Shown: positions 3,734 to 19,532 of the stretch, piece by piece | Numbering within the stretch: position 1 is the first letter of the stretch | Layout: every line of letters begins with the position of its first letter | Source: a virus | Strand: one strand, 5' to 3' | DNA length: 23,068 nt | IMG/VR virus record: IMGVR_UViG_3300011115_001040 | Span: 1-23,068 of that record | Notes under the pieces: model-generated | Databases searched by the model: none | Told to the model about the DNA's origin: nothing | The model's input: only the letters and a program-made list of their open reading frames with translations | Program-made: the position numbers and the translations under genes

Positions 3734-4441
3734 TCACAACCACATGAACTCAAGCATTGGATTTACACTCGTAGGGGGCACGCATACCATTGCTACTGCC
3801 GGCTGGGCATCCATTAGCTGCTCGCTAGTAAGCCTACCGCCCGAGCTAACGTACAATGCGGCATTTATTGGATATGGAACTGCCGTCTCATACTGATCGG
3901 TAGCAAAGATACATCCGCTTGGATTTGGCCAGACAGTTACTTTGTTGCTTCCAAGTGTAGAATCATCCCCTGGTCTGTTCGGCACATAATACGAATACCT
4001 AACGCGTATCATTACGCTGTCGTTAGTAGTAGAGATTGGACTGAGTCGCGCATTTAATGGAGTGCCAGCGACTATGTTCACTGCTCCATTTGTTGCAATC
4101 AACTCTACTCCGGCTATGTCGGCAGCAAAGCTGTATTGCAAAACATTGGCGTTCTTGAGGAATGCAACTCTGTTTATCGCAAGAGTTGGCACTCCAGTGC
4201 TCATATCTATCTCGGAAGTAGACGGAGTAACCACCACTATTTCATCAATAGATGGGCGAACGTGAGCGACCTCTCTCACGTCCTCGATGATGCCGAATGG
4301 CGCGATGCCGTCGCTTACGCCGAGAACAATCTCGTTGCCGACTAGCTTATGCTGGCCAATCATACCAGGCAAAAATGTAGCATTTGGATCAAGAGGCCTC
4401 TGAGTGGGCCAATTTCTGCCAACATGAATTGGCCTAAGCAT
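3734..4441 (-). CDS. Beta-rich virion protein candidate (capsid decoration or small capsid protein), 235 aa
   Basis: ATG 4439-4441 overlaps the previous stop (TGATG). The sequence is unlike its helical neighbours. It is rich in Val, Ile, Thr, Pro, Asn and Gly with many short predicted beta strands, and it has few Lys and no coiled coil. The N-terminal third has PGMIGQ (25-30) and SDGIAPFGIIEDV (43-55), a pattern I associate with phage capsid-surface or decoration proteins that start with a Gly/Pro-rich beta region. Position just after the protease/scaffold gene fits a capsid component. At 235 residues it is short for an HK97-fold major capsid protein, although that is not excluded. No K-T-A motif is present. 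Confidence 0.8.
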   Translation of the reverse strand: MLRPIHVGRNWPTQRPLDPNATFLPGMIGQHKLVGNEIVLGVSDGIAPFGIIEDVREVAHVRPSIDEIVVVTPSTSEIDMSTGVPTLAINRVAFLKNANVLQYSFAADIAGVELIATNGAVNIVAGTPLNARLSPISTTNDSVMIRVRYSYYVPNRPGDDSTLGSNKVTVWPNPSGCIFATDQYETAVPYPINAALYVSSGGRLTSEQLMDAQPAVAMVCVPPTSVNPMLEFMWL

Positions 4442-4944: not shown

Positions 4945-7302
4945 TCAGATATCGAAGAGAGCCTTGCCTAGGCTGCGCCAGTCGCGAACGTCGACGCTGC
5001 TGCCGCTTGAAGCGGTGCGAGTGTTCGGCGAATCGGCGCCGTCAACCACACCCATCTGAGGAACTACGCCAGCGGTGCGTGACTGTGGCTTAACGTTGCT
5101 AACCATGCGCTTGAAGCTGTCAAAGTTAGAATCGTTACCGGTTGCGAGGGTGTCCGCGCACTCGTCCAGTGCCGCACGACCCTGGCTGATAAGGCCTCGA
5201 GCCTGTGCATCAATGGCGACAGCGTAGGCGCGCTTGTAGCGGAAGCCAATGTCTTCGTTTGAGCTAGCCGACTTCTTAAAGTCTGAAGTTAGGCTCTTGG
5301 CGAAGTCGGTGTCGACCTTGCCAAAGTACTCAAGGTAGTACTTGACTGCTGCTGCATCAACCGCTGCGACTGCAACAAGAGACTCTAGCTGTGACTCCTT
5401 GAGCGTGCCCTGACGGATTGCTGATGCAATACCGGCAGCGGCCTTCTTTACGCCCTCTGAAACAGTCTTCATTGCCATTTCCTGAGCCTCAAAGACGCTC
5501 TGAACGTCAGAGTCGGCATCGCCCGTGGTCTTGGTACCAAAGTCGAGCTTGCCCTCTCCCTTGCCATGGACATTTAGCATTGGATCTGACGTTACCAGGT
5601 CCATCTTGGCGGCGCGAGCAACTAGCTGCTTGCGCATGGCGGCACGCTTGGCCATATCAGGATCGGCCATGCTATCCATCGCATCTGCCTCGTCTTCGTC
5701 TTCCTTGCCTTCCTTGACTTCCTCTGCGAAGTCCTCTACCTTCTCTTCTAGAGCTGCAAGCTCTTCACGCAGCTCCTCAAGGGCCTTGTCGATATCTTCG
5801 TGCTCGCCATCAGTGTGCTCCTCGATGGCTTCTTCGACTTCTTCAGAAACCTGATCCAGTTCCTCATCATCGAGAACATAGGCATCTTCCTTTGCTTCTG
5901 CGAACTCTGCAATGCGCTCGTTCGCTTCCATCGCGGCAAGATGACCGTCACGGATCGCTGCGCGAGCAGCGAGACGAACCTTGGGGCTGGTCAGGTCTGC
6001 CTCGGTGACTAGAAAGCGCATCTCGCTGGCGAGAGAAGCCAACTCGGAGTGAGCCTCAAACATGTTGCGATTCATTGAAGCGGTAACGCCTAGGGCGCTG
6101 GCATCAACGTCGACATTGTCAACGCCTTCGTCACGACCCATTACGACGTCCTTGAGATTTGCCATGCACTCTTCTAGCTTCTCCATGGCGGCAATCAACT
6201 TGCTCTTCATGTCATCTGAAGCGGCATCTGCCTGGCCTTCTTCGGCTGGTTCGACCATCGGAGCTGGAGCTGCGGGAGCCATAGGAGCGGCAGGAGCCTC
6301 TGGAACGTCAGTCGCCGACTGCTTGGCAGCATCGAGCTCTGCTGCCAGCTTGCTGATGCGTCCTGCTCGGATCTGTGCCATTAGCTGCTTGCCGTACTCA
6401 GGAGAAACAAATAGGTCGCCCCAGGTCTTACCGGCAACGTCGCTCTGCTTGTTCAAGTGAACATTGTAGGCGTCCGAAGCAGTGACAGAGAATACTTCCT
6501 TGTCGCCAGCCAGAACCGACCAGCGCGAGCCTGCTACATTGGCAGACTTGGTTAGACGAGCCTTGAGGCCAGCGCGCTGAATAAGTTCCTTGATCTTCTG
6601 ATCAGGATTTGCAGCCTTCGTGTCAAGAACCTCACCATCGAGATGGTGATCGCTATCACGTAGACCTGGGTCGCCCATTGGAGCATATGACGTGGGTTCT
6701 TCAGTGCCCTGTGGGTAGGCCTTCTTCTTCATCGTCTTGCTGGCTTTGGCCTTGGCCATTGCTTTTTCGTCTTCTTCGTCTTCTTCGTCTTTCTTTGATG
6801 GCTTCTTGGCATCCTTCTTGGGATCCTTCTTTTCGTCCTTCTTGGCAAGGAAGGGGTTCTTGGCCTTCTTCTTTGCGGCTTCTTTTAGGATCTCGAGACG
6901 ACGAACCAGTGCCGCTTCGGCAGTCTTTAGGTCGTTATCATCGCCATCGTCGCCATCATCGCCATCATATGCATTTGCAGCTGGGACAAACTTCTTGTCA
7001 GCGATTACGCCAGCTGGCTTGCCAGCTGGGCCCTTGACTACAACGCCAGTAGTTTCAGCAATGGCCTTCAGCTTCTCTGCACGAGCAGTGCGACGAGCAT
7101 CTAGGGAAGCGCGGAGGAGCAATTCCTTCGTCTTCTGGTCTGGGTTCGCTACGGAAGTGTCGAGCTCCTCACCGTGAAGGTGATGATCTTCATCACGTAG
7201 ATCGGGGTTTCCCATTGGGGCATAAGCCTTTGGCTCTTCTGTTCCCTGCATGTAAGACTTCTTACGCAGGTTCGCGCGCTTCCGGAGTTCATCAAACGTC
7301 AT
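4945..7302 (-). CDS. Possible nested in-frame scaffold protein (785 aa) from an internal start
   Basis: Met512 of the polyprotein (codon 7300-7302) is preceded by ACAGGAGATATT, an AGGAG Shine-Dalgarno with 5-base spacing, which is as good as the sites of the separate genes here. Initiation there would give a protein beginning MTFDELRKRANL that lacks the protease but keeps the duplicated modules, acidic coiled coil and C-terminus. The precedent is phage lambda, where scaffold Nu3 starts in frame within protease gene C. Codon use also shifts at about this point, from AAA/ATA/AGA-rich to AAG/CGC-rich. Expression of the nested product is inferred. Confidence 0.5.
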   Translation of the reverse strand: MTFDELRKRANLRKKSYMQGTEEPKAYAPMGNPDLRDEDHHLHGEELDTSVANPDQKTKELLLRASLDARRTARAEKLKAIAETTGVVVKGPAGKPAGVIADKKFVPAANAYDGDDGDDGDDNDLKTAEAALVRRLEILKEAAKKKAKNPFLAKKDEKKDPKKDAKKPSKKDEEDEEDEKAMAKAKASKTMKKKAYPQGTEEPTSYAPMGDPGLRDSDHHLDGEVLDTKAANPDQKIKELIQRAGLKARLTKSANVAGSRWSVLAGDKEVFSVTASDAYNVHLNKQSDVAGKTWGDLFVSPEYGKQLMAQIRAGRISKLAAELDAAKQSATDVPEAPAAPMAPAAPAPMVEPAEEGQADAASDDMKSKLIAAMEKLEECMANLKDVVMGRDEGVDNVDVDASALGVTASMNRNMFEAHSELASLASEMRFLVTEADLTSPKVRLAARAAIRDGHLAAMEANERIAEFAEAKEDAYVLDDEELDQVSEEVEEAIEEHTDGEHEDIDKALEELREELAALEEKVEDFAEEVKEGKEDEDEADAMDSMADPDMAKRAAMRKQLVARAAKMDLVTSDPMLNVHGKGEGKLDFGTKTTGDADSDVQSVFEAQEMAMKTVSEGVKKAAAGIASAIRQGTLKESQLESLVAVAAVDAAAVKYYLEYFGKVDTDFAKSLTSDFKKSASSNEDIGFRYKRAYAVAIDAQARGLISQGRAALDECADTLATGNDSNFDSFKRMVSNVKPQSRTAGVVPQMGVVDGADSPNTRTASSGSSVDVRDWRSLGKALFDI

Positions 7303-8835
7303 AATATCTCCTGTTCCCACTCCCGCCTTCTGGGTCGGGAGACATGATTTCAAACTATCCAAACTGTTTTTAATAGATGTTATTCTGTCTACAAGCGCAT
7401 TGGATGTTTTTTCAAGCACCTGCGCATCTTTTTTCATCGACATATCTGCATACATTGCCGCAAACCCGGTAATACTAGAGGCCGGACCCTCCCCAGTGCC
7501 GGAATGACCAGCCTGCATGTTTCCTCTTCCAAACATACTCGTATCTAAGTTCTCGGTTCCGGCCGTATTGCCCACTTGAGCTCCAGCTAAGCCATTTCGG
7601 GCATCAGATCCTAGTGAAGAATCGCCCGCTGCTGAGGATGGCGTGACCGAGCCAGGTCCGCCTGAGATTTTACCAAGAATCATCTCATTAAGTTTGTTAA
7701 GAAATTCCTGACAAATCTCTGATTTTGTACGGGCCAATGCATTCTGAAGCCTCTCCACAAGATCAGGCTCATCCTTGATGTCGCCATAAAAGGCGTCTAA
7801 GTTGCCTTTTAAAGAATTTTCGTACATCTCTTCGATCTTCTTGACTGCAGCGGAGAAGGGGTCCGAATTCTTTTCACTCGTCTTTATAACGCCTAGAATA
7901 GTAACGAGATTATCCTTGGTCTCTTGATTATAGGATGGTTTCTCAAGCTGCCCTTTTATGGCATCTAGCTCTTGATCAAATGCTGCTAGCGCCTCTAGGG
8001 GTGCTCCTTTAATCTTGCGGAGCTCATCGGCTTGCGCACGATAGTCGTTGAGGCTAGCCACGATCTTGCGAATCTTTGCACGAGGATCTGCGCCTGTGAC
8101 AACGATGCTAAGCTCGATTGGATTTAGATCAAAGTTAATCTCGCCATAATGCGTACGCGCCTTTACATGGCCGCAAAACTCTGAGGCAACAGTTGCTACG
8201 TTTTGGCACTCAGAGCATACCGAGCGGCCTACTGCTGTTCCCATCGATACGTTGGTGGCATACCCGGCCTCTATCTTGCGAGCAAGATCTGGGTAATTCT
8301 TCTTGTCAAGCGCGAAAAGAGCATGCACTCTCTTGAACTTAGGGTCGTAAAAGGTGTCTACGATTACACCGCGGATACCATCGACAGAGCTTGAGACATG
8401 ATCTTTGCAAAGAGGCTTGCCAATCCAATTCTTATAGGCTTTTAGTAGCTCTGACTCTGGAAAGATGTCTCCGTTATTGTTCTTCGTCGGGCGGACACCG
8501 TCTGGGCTTACCCAGCGAGCAGTCTCTCTACCGCTCTCGCCGTCATACTTCTCGAACCAACCCGAGACCGGCTTGCCCGTCGCGTTCTTTATAACTTCTC
8601 CGGTCTCTTGGTTGACAAGAGATGACTCGGCTGCATGCATCATGATGCAGCTAGCATAAAGAAAGTCGTCTACATAGAGAGAGAGCTCCTTGGCTCCTCG
8701 CTTCTTCTGTTCGTCGCGAAGTGTATTCGTGACTGACGCAAATCGCGCATGGACTGCGGGATCATCGTTTAGCTTTGAATTGTCAATGATGCCAAACGAA
8801 TTGCCGTCAATATAGGCACTCTTGATAATGCTCAT
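4945..8835 (-). CDS. Prohead protease fused to a long scaffold-like region (1296-aa polyprotein)
   Basis: ATG 8833-8835 follows a strong GGGAGGAGAA Shine-Dalgarno and overlaps the 51-aa gene stop (ATGA). Residues about 1-260 look like a phage head-maturation serine protease: GKPLCKDH (candidate catalytic His146), NVSMG (candidate Ser197), then a Cys/His cluster CSEC (207-210) and FCGH (220-223), and ELSIVVTGADPRAKI. Residues about 270-510 are helical with a Gly/Ser-rich linker (390-455). Residues 512-1296 are scaffold-like: a 52-residue module in two copies (530-581, 709-760), GDD repeats (625-633), a Lys/Asp/Glu tract (665-708), a Pro/Ala linker (845-863), a long acidic coiled coil (about 985-1050) and a helical C-terminus. 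Free proteases of this kind are usually only a few hundred residues. The fusion suggests the scaffold carries its own maturation enzyme. The protease assignment is by motif, without alignment. Confidence 0.85.
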   Translation of the reverse strand: MSIIKSAYIDGNSFGIIDNSKLNDDPAVHARFASVTNTLRDEQKKRGAKELSLYVDDFLYASCIMMHAAESSLVNQETGEVIKNATGKPVSGWFEKYDGESGRETARWVSPDGVRPTKNNNGDIFPESELLKAYKNWIGKPLCKDHVSSSVDGIRGVIVDTFYDPKFKRVHALFALDKKNYPDLARKIEAGYATNVSMGTAVGRSVCSECQNVATVASEFCGHVKARTHYGEINFDLNPIELSIVVTGADPRAKIRKIVASLNDYRAQADELRKIKGAPLEALAAFDQELDAIKGQLEKPSYNQETKDNLVTILGVIKTSEKNSDPFSAAVKKIEEMYENSLKGNLDAFYGDIKDEPDLVERLQNALARTKSEICQEFLNKLNEMILGKISGGPGSVTPSSAAGDSSLGSDARNGLAGAQVGNTAGTENLDTSMFGRGNMQAGHSGTGEGPASSITGFAAMYADMSMKKDAQVLEKTSNALVDRITSIKNSLDSLKSCLPTQKAGVGTGDIMTFDELRKRANLRKKSYMQGTEEPKAYAPMGNPDLRDEDHHLHGEELDTSVANPDQKTKELLLRASLDARRTARAEKLKAIAETTGVVVKGPAGKPAGVIADKKFVPAANAYDGDDGDDGDDNDLKTAEAALVRRLEILKEAAKKKAKNPFLAKKDEKKDPKKDAKKPSKKDEEDEEDEKAMAKAKASKTMKKKAYPQGTEEPTSYAPMGDPGLRDSDHHLDGEVLDTKAANPDQKIKELIQRAGLKARLTKSANVAGSRWSVLAGDKEVFSVTASDAYNVHLNKQSDVAGKTWGDLFVSPEYGKQLMAQIRAGRISKLAAELDAAKQSATDVPEAPAAPMAPAAPAPMVEPAEEGQADAASDDMKSKLIAAMEKLEECMANLKDVVMGRDEGVDNVDVDASALGVTASMNRNMFEAHSELASLASEMRFLVTEADLTSPKVRLAARAAIRDGHLAAMEANERIAEFAEAKEDAYVLDDEELDQVSEEVEEAIEEHTDGEHEDIDKALEELREELAALEEKVEDFAEEVKEGKEDEDEADAMDSMADPDMAKRAAMRKQLVARAAKMDLVTSDPMLNVHGKGEGKLDFGTKTTGDADSDVQSVFEAQEMAMKTVSEGVKKAAAGIASAIRQGTLKESQLESLVAVAAVDAAAVKYYLEYFGKVDTDFAKSLTSDFKKSASSNEDIGFRYKRAYAVAIDAQARGLISQGRAALDECADTLATGNDSNFDSFKRMVSNVKPQSRTAGVVPQMGVVDGADSPNTRTASSGSSVDVRDWRSLGKALFDI
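6556..6711 (-). repeat. Duplicated 52-residue module, copy 2
   Basis: This segment encodes residues 709-760 of the polyprotein and repeats the module of copy 1, keeping QGTEEP, YAPMG, DHHL, LDT, ANPDQK and KEL. It begins 179 codons after the start of copy 1. The intervening sequence contains the GDD repeats and the charged Lys/Asp/Glu tract. Confidence 0.9.
6937..6968 (-). repeat. Nine-base tandem repeat encoding Gly-Asp-Asp
   Basis: On the plus strand ATCATCGCC, ATCGTCGCC, ATCATCGCC and a partial fourth unit follow each other. On the minus strand they encode GDD repeated three times (residues 625-633 of the polyprotein). This is a short coding microsatellite that could vary in length; it is not a CRISPR array. 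Confidence 0.85.
7093..7248 (-). repeat. Duplicated 52-residue module, copy 1
   Basis: This segment encodes residues 530-581 of the polyprotein, from QGTEEP through YAPMG, LRD, DHHL, LDT and ANPDQK to a final AR. It aligns without gaps to copy 2, with 38 of 52 residues identical by my count. Both copies follow a Lys-Lys-(Ser/Ala)-Tyr stretch. Confidence 0.9.
7300..7312 (-). promoter_or_regulatory. Internal ribosome-binding site and ATG within the polyprotein gene
   Basis: On the minus strand AGGAG (7308-7312) is followed by ATATT and ATG (7300-7302), in frame with the 1296-aa protein. It would allow scaffold to be made in excess over the protease-scaffold fusion. Confidence 0.5.
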
Positions 8836-14112: not shown

Positions 14113-16455
14113 TCAATGCATCCTAGGGATGTACCCTACAATGGGAACCACTATGTCGTCCTGCTTCTTTTTATTTACACCATCGACCCTTTGCTCTGTG
14201 AACTTGCGAGTTACCATGAACTTATAAGCTGTATATGCATACATCAATGCCATTAGTCCGTCATTCTGGACTACTCCTTTTTTATAAGTCTTTAGCACTA
14301 TGCCATCTTTTGTCTTGGTGTGTGTTTCCATTGATGTTATATGGTCTACTAGCCAACCTAAAAGCTCTAGTGAGTCTCCCTTTGCTGGGATCTTTATTTT
14401 GCCTCTCTTAAATAGAGCAAATATCTCATCCAGGACCTGATCCTTATTGACTCCTACCATTAGATCCTTTTCGTCATATGAAAAGGCTCGCTTGGAATTG
14501 CTGAGATTGGTGCATCCGAGAAACTTGTCCTTGAGTCCCTCGTTATGCTGAACGAGTCTGACAAAGTCATTTCCATAATAAAAGTCTGCTGCGGCCTGGT
14601 CTATATGAAAATCAGACATCAGCTTTCTGACGACATTCATCTTATAGTCCGGATCATTCTTCTTGAGTCTGACGGCATTCTCTATTGTCAACGTCCCCGT
14701 ATGGTCGACTGAGAGTATCACTGCACAGGTAAATGATTTTCCGCGCTTAACTTCTAGATCTTCATCTGATTCAACTTTCTCACCCCAGTCCATCCCTAAG
14801 AAGAAGCTTTTGCCTGCGGGATTAGTGATACTTTTTGCAACGCCTCGGGACTCGTCGAGAGCATGGGCGTATACTTCCTCTAGGGTAATTGGAACTTCGC
14901 TGGCAGAATAAAACTGGCCTTTTGTTTCGTTTCTCCACGCACGCTCTGATGCATTCTTGTTGTGGGTTGGCCAATAATCAAGAACGTTCTCTTTTGTGAA
15001 AAGAGGGCTTAACATCATGTTGAAGTGGTATCCTATGAACTTCTGTGGTTCTCCCTTTGCATTGGTTGGTCTTGTGGATATCCAGCGCCCAAGATCTACT
15101 GACTCGCGCTTATCCTGTGTCTTGAGGCACGACGGACACTTGATTAGATTTTCCTTGATCCAGGTATCATTCCAATCATCATTATCTAGGTTGTACAAAA
15201 AGAAATAATGATCACAGTGCTTGCATCGCAGCTGGTAAAATCGCTGGTCAGATTCTTCCCACAGGGTCCAGAAATATGATCCAGAGTGTTTTGGAGTGCC
15301 GAAGAATACCTGCACTCCCTTTGTCGGAGCACCATATGGCGTTGCAGTCAAAACCTTAAGAGTGTTCTCTATTGCGCTGCGGGTCATGTCTTGGCAATTC
15401 TTTAAAACCACTCCTCCGAGCTTCTTAGAGCTGTGCCTTGACGTCACAATGAAATTGTGATTTTTCTTTACCTCAATATCGTAAACTTGCTGCTTTTTCT
15501 CTTGAGGTATTACTTCATCAACCGCCGTCACAGTATGAGCAGCATGCGCCTGTTTATTGTCCGGGCCGAACTGAGGTACGGACGGTTTGGTTATAATCAG
15601 AGATCCGGGCTTCAGATCCTTGGCTTGGACGTAACCATTTGTAGTTAGAAATGGATGATCTGGAGTGCACGTTATTTTTCGATTACCCATTTTCACAAGC
15701 ACTACGTCTCTAGGGGCGTGCTCCCATGCATGAACTAAGTCTTGATACTCGAACACATCATTCTCTATGTCGTACGACATGATTTTTGGATTTGGCCTTC
15801 CTTTTTTCCAATTCCGATAAAGTGTCCTGATTGTTTTCTTGCCGCCCTCTACTTCGATATATTCAGATCCCGAAATGCACTCGTCGAACAACAGCACATC
15901 TTGTGTACTACCACGGATACGGTCACCCGATTTACCTATAGAGTCTACCCGGACCTTGTTCATGCCGATGAAGTTCTTTTGAGTCTGAGTATCCTCTAGG
16001 TCTACTACGCGAGCGACCTTGAGAGCTCTTTTGCTGATATAGTTATCTTTTGATCCGCTTATTAGCGTAGCTAATATGTCCTTCGCGTAAACCCCGCACC
16101 GCTTGAGGTCTGGAAATACATGCATTACTCGTATTGGAGGCTTGCTGGATTCAGCGCCATATAGTCCAGAGCTACCCATGTGAAGGCTAAGGACTCCTGC
16201 CATTATGGTTGCGCCTACCTGGCGCCCCTTTAATAGGATGATTGGCTTGGCCTCTTTGTTTTCTACTTGAGCAGAAACAGTCCTGTAGATTTCGGCCATA
16301 TACTTCCAGCCGGAGCCTGAAAGATCAAATGGCTTGCCATCGATAGTTAGGTTGTGCTCTGCAAAGCTAACTGGATCAAGAACCGCTATGTCCTTCTTAA
16401 TCTCATCAAATATGTCTCTTGACGTAAGTACTTTTATCTTCTTGGGGCTTACCAT
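14113..16455 (-). CDS. terL: Terminase large subunit containing an in-frame intein (780 aa precursor)
   Basis: This is the ATPase and nuclease motor that cuts and packages DNA. ATG 16453-16455 follows GTGGAGAAAG and is preferred over an upstream TTG (16476) that falls inside a hairpin. Motifs, numbered from this ATG: Walker A variant LKGRQVGAT (about 75-83; Lys ahead of the loop, as in many terminases), Walker B DVLLFDE (186-192), intein 193-353, coupling motif FFGTP, a zinc ribbon (C411, C414, C440, C443), and RNase H-like nuclease acids D556 (GMDWG), D624 (ADFYYG) and D732 (QNDG). The zinc ribbon and the domain after it recall the lambda gpA-type terminase family. Removing the intein gives about 619 residues, normal for TerL. 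All catalytic residues appear present. Confidence 0.93.
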   Translation of the reverse strand: MVSPKKIKVLTSRDIFDEIKKDIAVLDPVSFAEHNLTIDGKPFDLSGSGWKYMAEIYRTVSAQVENKEAKPIILLKGRQVGATIMAGVLSLHMGSSGLYGAESSKPPIRVMHVFPDLKRCGVYAKDILATLISGSKDNYISKRALKVARVVDLEDTQTQKNFIGMNKVRVDSIGKSGDRIRGSTQDVLLFDECISGSEYIEVEGGKKTIRTLYRNWKKGRPNPKIMSYDIENDVFEYQDLVHAWEHAPRDVVLVKMGNRKITCTPDHPFLTTNGYVQAKDLKPGSLIITKPSVPQFGPDNKQAHAAHTVTAVDEVIPQEKKQQVYDIEVKKNHNFIVTSRHSSKKLGGVVLKNCQDMTRSAIENTLKVLTATPYGAPTKGVQVFFGTPKHSGSYFWTLWEESDQRFYQLRCKHCDHYFFLYNLDNDDWNDTWIKENLIKCPSCLKTQDKRESVDLGRWISTRPTNAKGEPQKFIGYHFNMMLSPLFTKENVLDYWPTHNKNASERAWRNETKGQFYSASEVPITLEEVYAHALDESRGVAKSITNPAGKSFFLGMDWGEKVESDEDLEVKRGKSFTCAVILSVDHTGTLTIENAVRLKKNDPDYKMNVVRKLMSDFHIDQAAADFYYGNDFVRLVQHNEGLKDKFLGCTNLSNSKRAFSYDEKDLMVGVNKDQVLDEIFALFKRGKIKIPAKGDSLELLGWLVDHITSMETHTKTKDGIVLKTYKKGVVQNDGLMALMYAYTAYKFMVTRKFTEQRVDGVNKKKQDDIVVPIVGYIPRMH
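15397..15879 (-). other. Mini-intein in TerL, 161 codons
   Basis: The insert begins with Cys in CISGSEYIEV (splicing block A) directly after the Walker B residues FDE. It has block B as GNRKITCTPDHPF with the T-x-x-H residues, block F as VYDIEVKKNHNFIV, and ends GGVVLKN before Cys of the C-extein (CQDM). Self-splicing would rejoin LLFDE to CQDM. Only about 50 residues separate blocks B and F, too few for a LAGLIDADG or HNH homing endonuclease. The penultimate residue is Lys instead of the common His. Such inteins can still splice, sometimes slowly. Confidence 0.93.
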
Positions 16456-16474
16456 CTGCTTTCTCCACAAACAC

Positions 16475-16499
16475 AAATCCGGCTATTGAAGCCGGATTT
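16475..16499 (-). terminator. Hairpin (possible terminator or attenuator) directly before terL
   Basis: A perfect 10-bp stem with a 5-base loop reads AAATCCGGCT-TCAAT-AGCCGGATTT on the minus strand. It is followed by GTGTTTGTGG, only a weak U-rich tail, and then the terL Shine-Dalgarno within about 5 bases. It follows the 169-aa gene by 21 bp. It could be a partial terminator, an RNA-processing or stability element, or a translation-control structure. Its outer arms (AAATCC/GGATTT) match those of the terminator at 4894-4921. Confidence 0.5.
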
Positions 16500-18446: not shown

Positions 18447-18832
18447 GACACCTGCTCAATGTATTTCAAAAAGTCTCTCACTGCCTTGCCGGAGCCTGCT
18501 GAGCGCCAATACTTGCGATTCTCTTTCTTGTTGCAGTAAGCCTCTGTGGGAATTGCGGAATCTGTGGCATAGGCCTCGTATACACGCTTCTTCAGCGAAT
18601 GAGAGGCCTTCTTTCTGTATTCATCGAGTCGTCCTTGCAGTCCCTCTCCGGATCCGTAATCATAATTGTGTCTAAAAAAAGGTGGCATGTCTGCGTCAGC
18701 ACCTGTCAGAGGATGATCGGCAGACCATGCTGCGGTGGCAATAACTATTGGAGTTGCCAGAGTTCCGTGCTCCCTGTGTAGGGCTAGCGCCTCATTGATT
18801 ATCTTTTGCTTCCACTTCTTTACATTAGACAT
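18440..18832 (-). CDS. 130-aa protein, unknown function
   Basis: ATG 18830-18832 overlaps the end of the nucleotidyltransferase-like gene by 8 bases and has an AGGATG site. The protein is basic, starting MSNVKKWKQKIINEALAL. It has a central stretch with ADMPPFFRHNYDYGSG and a Lys/Arg/Tyr-rich C-terminal half (YRKKASHSLKKRVYEAY, CNKKENRKYWRS) that could bind nucleic acid. It ends in QVSC. Tight overlap on both sides suggests coupled translation with the nucleotidyltransferase-like and four-cysteine genes. Function is unknown. Confidence 0.8.
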   Translation of the reverse strand: MSNVKKWKQKIINEALALHREHGTLATPIVIATAAWSADHPLTGADADMPPFFRHNYDYGSGEGLQGRLDEYRKKASHSLKKRVYEAYATDSAIPTEAYCNKKENRKYWRSAGSGKAVRDFLKYIEQVSC

Positions 18833-19532
18833 GATGAAGCATCCTGTGGCGGGCCAATTCCTGTACGACTAGCTTTGTCATAGGAATGTGTTTTATAAGA
18901 TCTCTGTCTCGTATCCACTTGATTATGTCGGGATTTTTCCTAATCGCATCATTTATCATTTTGCCCGCATGCCTGTGGTTTATTGCGACAACCCTATGGA
19001 ATTGAGCAAGCAGCTCTTGTTCTACCGATGGATCCAGTAGCATGCCATCTGCAATGCACTTGATTGCCCTTAGTAGTCTAGTTGGATCCCTAAAGGATGT
19101 GGCAGGGTCTACAGGGCAGCGCAGCACCTTGGACTTAAGATCCGCCAGACCACCGCAGCGATCCAAAAACTCACCATTATCGCAGGCGATCATCATCGTA
19201 TTGATCGTAAAGTCTCTGCTGTACAGTTCGGATGCAAAAGCCCCTTCTTCGTGATCAAAGTGCAAGACATGTGGACTGAAATCTAGCTCTATCCCGTCGA
19301 CAATCATTTTCTTGGCGCCGATCCCAGTCTTGTAGACTGGGACTGAGAACAGTTGGGCCACCAAGTCTGCCAATACCAAATTATCTGGGCTTCCGCAGGT
19401 AATGTCGTAATCAACTGGCTCTGTACCAAGTACCATATTTCTTACGGCGCCGCCAACTATAAAGGGACGAGGCAGGCCATTGGCCTTTGCCAATCCTGCT
19501 ATTTGTCTCATTATCTCGGCGACGCTGCTCAT
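18825..19532 (-). CDS. tRNA nucleotidyltransferase / poly(A) polymerase head-domain protein, 235 aa
   Basis: Class II enzymes of this family add CCA to tRNA 3' ends, or poly(A) to RNA, from CTP and ATP. The diagnostic blocks are all present: PFIVGGAVRNMVLG (23-36), metal-binding DYDIT (D41, D43), GIELDFSP with a likely third acid (80-87), SRDFTINTM (105-113), and GGLADLKSKVLRC with SFRDPTRLLRA (146-156). ATG 19530-19532 has AGGGA about 10 bases upstream. At 235 residues it holds the head and part of the neck. It lacks the C-terminal body and tail, since bacterial CCA enzymes usually exceed 370 residues. It may repair host or phage tRNA, or use another RNA. No tRNA gene was seen in the window. 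Confidence 0.88.
   Translation of the reverse strand: MSSVAEIMRQIAGLAKANGLPRPFIVGGAVRNMVLGTEPVDYDITCGSPDNLVLADLVAQLFSVPVYKTGIGAKKMIVDGIELDFSPHVLHFDHEEGAFASELYSRDFTINTMMIACDNGEFLDRCGGLADLKSKVLRCPVDPATSFRDPTRLLRAIKCIADGMLLDPSVEQELLAQFHRVVAINHRHAGKMINDAIRKNPDIIKWIRDRDLIKHIPMTKLVVQELARHRMLHHV

Follow-up and report, generated by a model that had tools for sequence, protein, structure and literature searches.

The TerL1-e intein of mycobacteriophages such as Gaia (gp2) is inserted in the Walker B motif of the large terminase subunit, and its fast splicing has been shown (Kelley et al. 2016, PMC5050341). The same study describes mycobacteriophage class 1 inteins with a penultimate Gly, Lys or Ser, which are located in other host proteins or at other sites. 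One of these has been mutated—the Gly intein in the phage RDF—and swapping in His slowed its splicing, the native non-His residue being the faster one (PMC5050341).

Here, we describe a mini-intein in the terL gene of a viral DNA stretch of 23,068 nucleotides, the whole of which is referred to as the window. Like TerL1-e, it is a Walker B insertion in a large terminase. However, TerL1-e groups with class 3 inteins (PMC5050341), whereas the window intein is of class 1 with Cys1 and an Asp at F:4. The terminase families differ as well: terminase_1 for TerL1-e and GpA_ATPase-like for the window. By its penultimate Lys, the window intein shows the same class of substitution as the mycobacteriophage non-His inteins, Lys included. 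With Walker B insertion in TerL and a penultimate Lys both already published (PMC5050341), it adds an ordinary example to a known kind.

The mini-intein and its place in TerL

The terL precursor and its parts are all encoded on the minus strand, a point on which the earlier note was silent for the insert:

14113–16476, minus strand: terL, large terminase subunit, precursor ORF of 787 aa (phrog_675 terminase large subunit, 5.8e-50; Pfam GpA_ATPase, 9e-10)
15880–16476, minus strand: N-extein, TerL residues 1–199 (86–88% identity to the intein-free TerLs of L007 and L009)
16207–16236, minus strand: putative Walker A-like segment LLKGRQVGAT, TerL residues 81–90 (motif assigned by eye)
15880–15897, minus strand: Walker B, VLLFDE, TerL residues 194–199, intein directly after (both acids, D198 and E199, invariant across the 17 TerLs aligned)
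15397–15879, minus strand, read from 15879 to 15397: class 1 mini-intein of 161 residues, TerL residues 200–360 (intein profiles; HINT-fold model)
15877–15879, minus strand: Cys1 of block A, the first nucleophile (invariant across the 33 allelic inteins aligned)
15643–15684, minus strand: block B region, ending in TCTPDHPFLT, with Thr72 and His75 (both invariant in the 33 inteins)
15487–15642, minus strand: B-to-F gap of about 52 residues (alignment with full-length alleles)
15451–15486, minus strand: block F, VYDIEVKKNHNF, with Asp134 and His141 (D134, N140, H141, N142 and F143 invariant in the 33 inteins)
15397–15417, minus strand: block G, GGVVLKN, with penultimate Lys160 and terminal Asn161 (N161 invariant in the 33 inteins)
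14113–15396, minus strand: C-extein, beginning with Cys+1 (CQDMTRS...), stop codon included (90–94% identity to close relatives)

The listed start codon of terL is TTG, and an ATG 7 codons downstream is a possible alternative. Within the putative Walker A-like segment, K83, R85, Q86, G88 and T90 are invariant in the 17 aligned TerLs.

The insert is a real class 1 mini-intein. Its translation (CISGSEY...GGVVLKN) runs stop-free over 161 residues, for which the chance at this base composition is about 3e-5. It matches the NCBIfam profiles TIGR01445 (intein_Nterm, 4.5e-15) and TIGR01443 (intein_Cterm, 3.5e-5) as well as Pfam Intein_splicing (2.7e-14). The open-frame probability together with these far stronger profile matches excludes a chance origin. 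An AlphaFold2 model built on an alignment of 33 allelic inteins displays the HINT fold with a pLDDT of 93.3, and inteins lead its 65 PDB matches (E <= 0.001); the model of the whole TerL precursor was poor (pLDDT 60.6) and left unused. On top stand the mini-inteins of Mtu RecA and Ssp DnaB (PDB 2imz, 6frg; TM 0.77–0.78 by query length, E about 1e-9), which share the fold and the lack of an endonuclease with the window intein at 17–20% sequence identity. Both carry the canonical penultimate His, unlike Lys160 of the window intein.

The earlier note had described an endonuclease-free mini-intein at the Walker B motif with Lys before the terminal Asn, and each of these three features holds. The insert follows VLLFDE directly and is itself followed by Cys, its last two residues are Lys160 and Asn161, and a Pfam search finds no endonuclease domain in the TerL precursor of the window. 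Where full-length alleles hold about 195 extra residues with a LAGLIDADG_2 domain between blocks B and F, the window intein bears only a short loop, and a low-pLDDT loop of the model (near residues 101–110) falls inside this gap.

Class 1 is assigned from Cys1 and the Asp at F:4, where a class 3 intein would be expected to have Cys; the terminal and +1 residues (C1, N161, C+1) and the block B and F residues (T72, H75, D134) are likewise those of class 1. The usual penultimate His is missing, but it does not define the class, as phage class 1 inteins with Gly, Lys and Ser exist (PMC5050341). A second deviation, missed in the earlier note, is Lys139 of block F, in a column that is otherwise almost always Asp (at least 90% of the aligned allelic inteins).

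Alleles of the site in syntenic phages

Relatives were taken from IMG/VR and labelled with L-numbers. Among these, one codon boundary occurs in three states. L007 and L008 are empty and read YDE-CQDM, and L009 and L010 are empty and read YDE-IQDM. All four lack exactly the 161 insert codons, which confirms the intein boundaries and answers the question raised by the earlier note of whether intein-free relatives share the insert: it is absent from these TerL homologues and is not an ordinary part of the protein. Full-length inteins of 353–358 residues occupy the same boundary in L002, L003, L006, L011–L014, L016 and L018. In L004, L005, L015 and L017, contig ends cut terL, and an intein of this kind is present, whole or in part. 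LAGLIDADG_2 was found between blocks B and F in all four full-length alleles scanned (L002, L006, L012 and L016; E 6e-17 to 2e-23).

The nine loci compared agree in their gene order around terL, hence these inteins are alleles and not paralogues. As read from full-length LAGLIDADG and empty alleles at the same boundary, the window intein is an endonuclease-lost form of an allelic, mobile LAGLIDADG intein. Five of the Lys-type inteins (L002, L003, L005, L016 and L018; 357 aa) share with it the phage lineage, the codon boundary, the penultimate Lys and Cys+1, whereas they keep the endonuclease (LAGLIDADG_2 shown for L002 and L016); their splicing domains are 36–39% identical to the window intein. 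L016, which has the intein, and L007, which is empty and keeps the +1 Cys, encode TerLs that are identical outside the intein site at the rounding used, with 22% four-fold divergence. This pair shows that the intein was recently gained or lost.

An Ile at +1 would not support class 1 splicing. The Ile of L009 and L010 may make these empty sites resistant to a splicing-competent insertion, and more distant empty relatives carry Val, Ile or Ala at +1. A +1 change that blocks splicing has been described for haloarchaeal MCM (PMC10643990).

Several further inteins were seen on the way. Three TerLs contain two inteins each with a 9-residue extein in between (e.g., ...PTHN/TMDCALFDE/C...), namely the ORFs of L049 (from 2489), L083 (from 2438) and L087 (from 2321), with the class 1 intein beginning at 4001 in all three. 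Their upstream intein looks like class 3 by eye (HLW, RCITVDS or KCITVDS, THN) and carries LAGLIDADG_3 in L049 and L087, and L041 bears the end of this same upstream intein plus an empty DE site. L109 and L119 have near-identical splicing domains and the same extein with inteins of 181 and 365 residues; the longer one gives no Pfam endonuclease match and may carry another endonuclease type. Inteins after a DE pair were also found in L062, L080, L086, L064, L085, L090, L091 and L071, in ORFs unlike the window TerL by length and flanks. Class 1 inteins may thus generally target Walker B or motif II.

The window is syntenic with L009, a contig of 371,675 bases, and could therefore be part of a jumbo phage. 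Two other genes of the window were annotated:

18825–19532, minus strand: gene within the structural gene block that encodes a tRNA nucleotidyltransferase / poly(A) polymerase head domain
4945–8835, minus strand: 1296-aa protein, residues 119–227 of which resemble a head maturation protease (phrog_18299, 2.9e-12)

The penultimate Lys and the loss of the endonuclease

The 47 distinct inteins found at DE-C sites, mainly of TerL but also of some further proteins, comprise 35 with a penultimate His, six with Lys and six with Ser. Lys160 is common to the window intein and the five alleles named above, so that all other Lys inteins are full-length. The earlier note had presented Lys as a peculiarity of the mini-intein, and this view is not supported. 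Such full-length alleles and the published phage data (PMC5050341) indicate that Lys is no mark of endonuclease loss and need not slow splicing. No link between a non-His residue and the mini form was seen: two of the 14 mini-inteins have such a residue, against 10 of the 33 long ones (Fisher p 0.30, on rows that are not phylogenetically independent).

Placing all mini-inteins in one clade is rejected (AU p 2.5e-63), and parsimony requires 9–12 changes between mini and long forms. The mini forms are hence polyphyletic, and the simplest reading is that endonuclease loss at the terL Walker B site was repeated. In a first tree, the window intein stands beside the Lys-type full-length inteins with a support of 81/78. 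In a second tree—calculated without the penultimate column and three distant rows—it moves to L006 (55/19), while the Lys clade is not rejected (AU p 0.18). The claim that Lys160 was inherited rather than convergent was dropped on account of this shift.

The branch to the window intein is long (1.4–2.0 changes per column). Its identity to full-length alleles is only 34–45%, and direct ancestry from a single one of these is not claimed for that reason. A separate recent invasion, suggested by 36–41% intein against 88–94% extein identity, was also dropped, as L002 and L006 show a similar contrast (43% against 85–90%). A single-sequence search of IMG/VR with the intein alone gave no close relative, which makes dN/dS on near copies impossible. 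A search of GTDB genome contigs gave no TerL relative, hence neither host nor prophage was found. Four-fold degenerate sites between the window and its relatives are saturated (0.58–0.70). The mini-intein would thus have kept its frame and nucleophiles for long, or have come from a similarly old lineage, and selection for splicing would be the simplest account of both.

Splicing, persistence and packaging

Taken together, the mini-intein is very probably the endonuclease-lost class 1 form of a LAGLIDADG family homing at the TerL Walker B site, which splices constitutively and persists without being needed. Its excision and the ligation of the exteins are inferred from its residues. After translation, Cys1 would form a thioester, helped by Thr72 and His75, and the N-extein would pass to Cys+1. 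Asn161 would then cyclise with His141 of block F, whereby Lys160 possibly assists in the role that a penultimate His usually has. The product would be a TerL in which FDE-CQDM is uninterrupted. Such a selfish remnant would persist because imprecise loss would destroy an essential ATPase, even though the intein itself is dispensable.

The earlier note had proposed instead that slow or condition-dependent splicing might control the timing of packaging, by deciding when TerL gains its ATPase activity. Placed directly behind the catalytic acids, the insert would indeed keep TerL inactive until splicing—given the invariance of D198 and E199 and what is known of the family—and the penultimate residue alters precursor accumulation in the phage RDF intein (PMC5050341). 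Nevertheless, syntenic relatives with near-identical TerL are intein-free, Lys is common to endonuclease-bearing selfish alleles, and five TerL inteins assayed with a reporter, one of them inserted at a Walker B site, were quick to splice, while the native non-His residue of the RDF intein sped splicing up (PMC5050341). No regulatory feature was found. Conditional splicing is thus improbable. Phages of this lineage exist with and without the intein (L016 and L007), hence packaging in this lineage does not need it and a required packaging timer is unlikely; with this pair and the fast published TerL inteins (PMC5050341), the proposed control of packaging timing is unsupported. About as improbable is the specific form in which the mini-intein with Lys160 and Lys139 would delay the TerL ATPase to late infection by slow or conditional splicing, as a timer that outlived the mobility of the intein.

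The two departures Lys160 (mostly His in relatives) and Lys139 (mostly Asp), together with the long branch, count against constitutive splicing and could mean weakened function. In the extreme, the intein would be decaying or dead and the contig a defective phage or one using another TerL, as both Lys residues differ from most relatives. On the other side, the frame is open and all nucleophiles are intact despite saturated four-fold sites, Lys160 is also found in alleles whose LAGLIDADG domain is complete, and the TerL flanking the intein is 88–94% conserved relative to its nearest relatives. This makes decay a slim prospect. An ordinary TerL insertion domain that merely resembles a HINT fold has next to no probability: its exact presence or absence at one codon boundary (L007–L010) refutes it, and Cys1, Asn161, Cys+1 and the allelic inteins with homing endonucleases speak against it.

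The site is a well-anchored case of the life cycle of an intein in syntenic phages—empty, full-length with endonuclease, and endonuclease-lost. As the penultimate Lys occurs in mobile and immobile alleles, it should be taken neither for a sign of decay nor for a switch. With these alleles, the splicing rates of His, Lys and Ser could be compared at a single insertion site.
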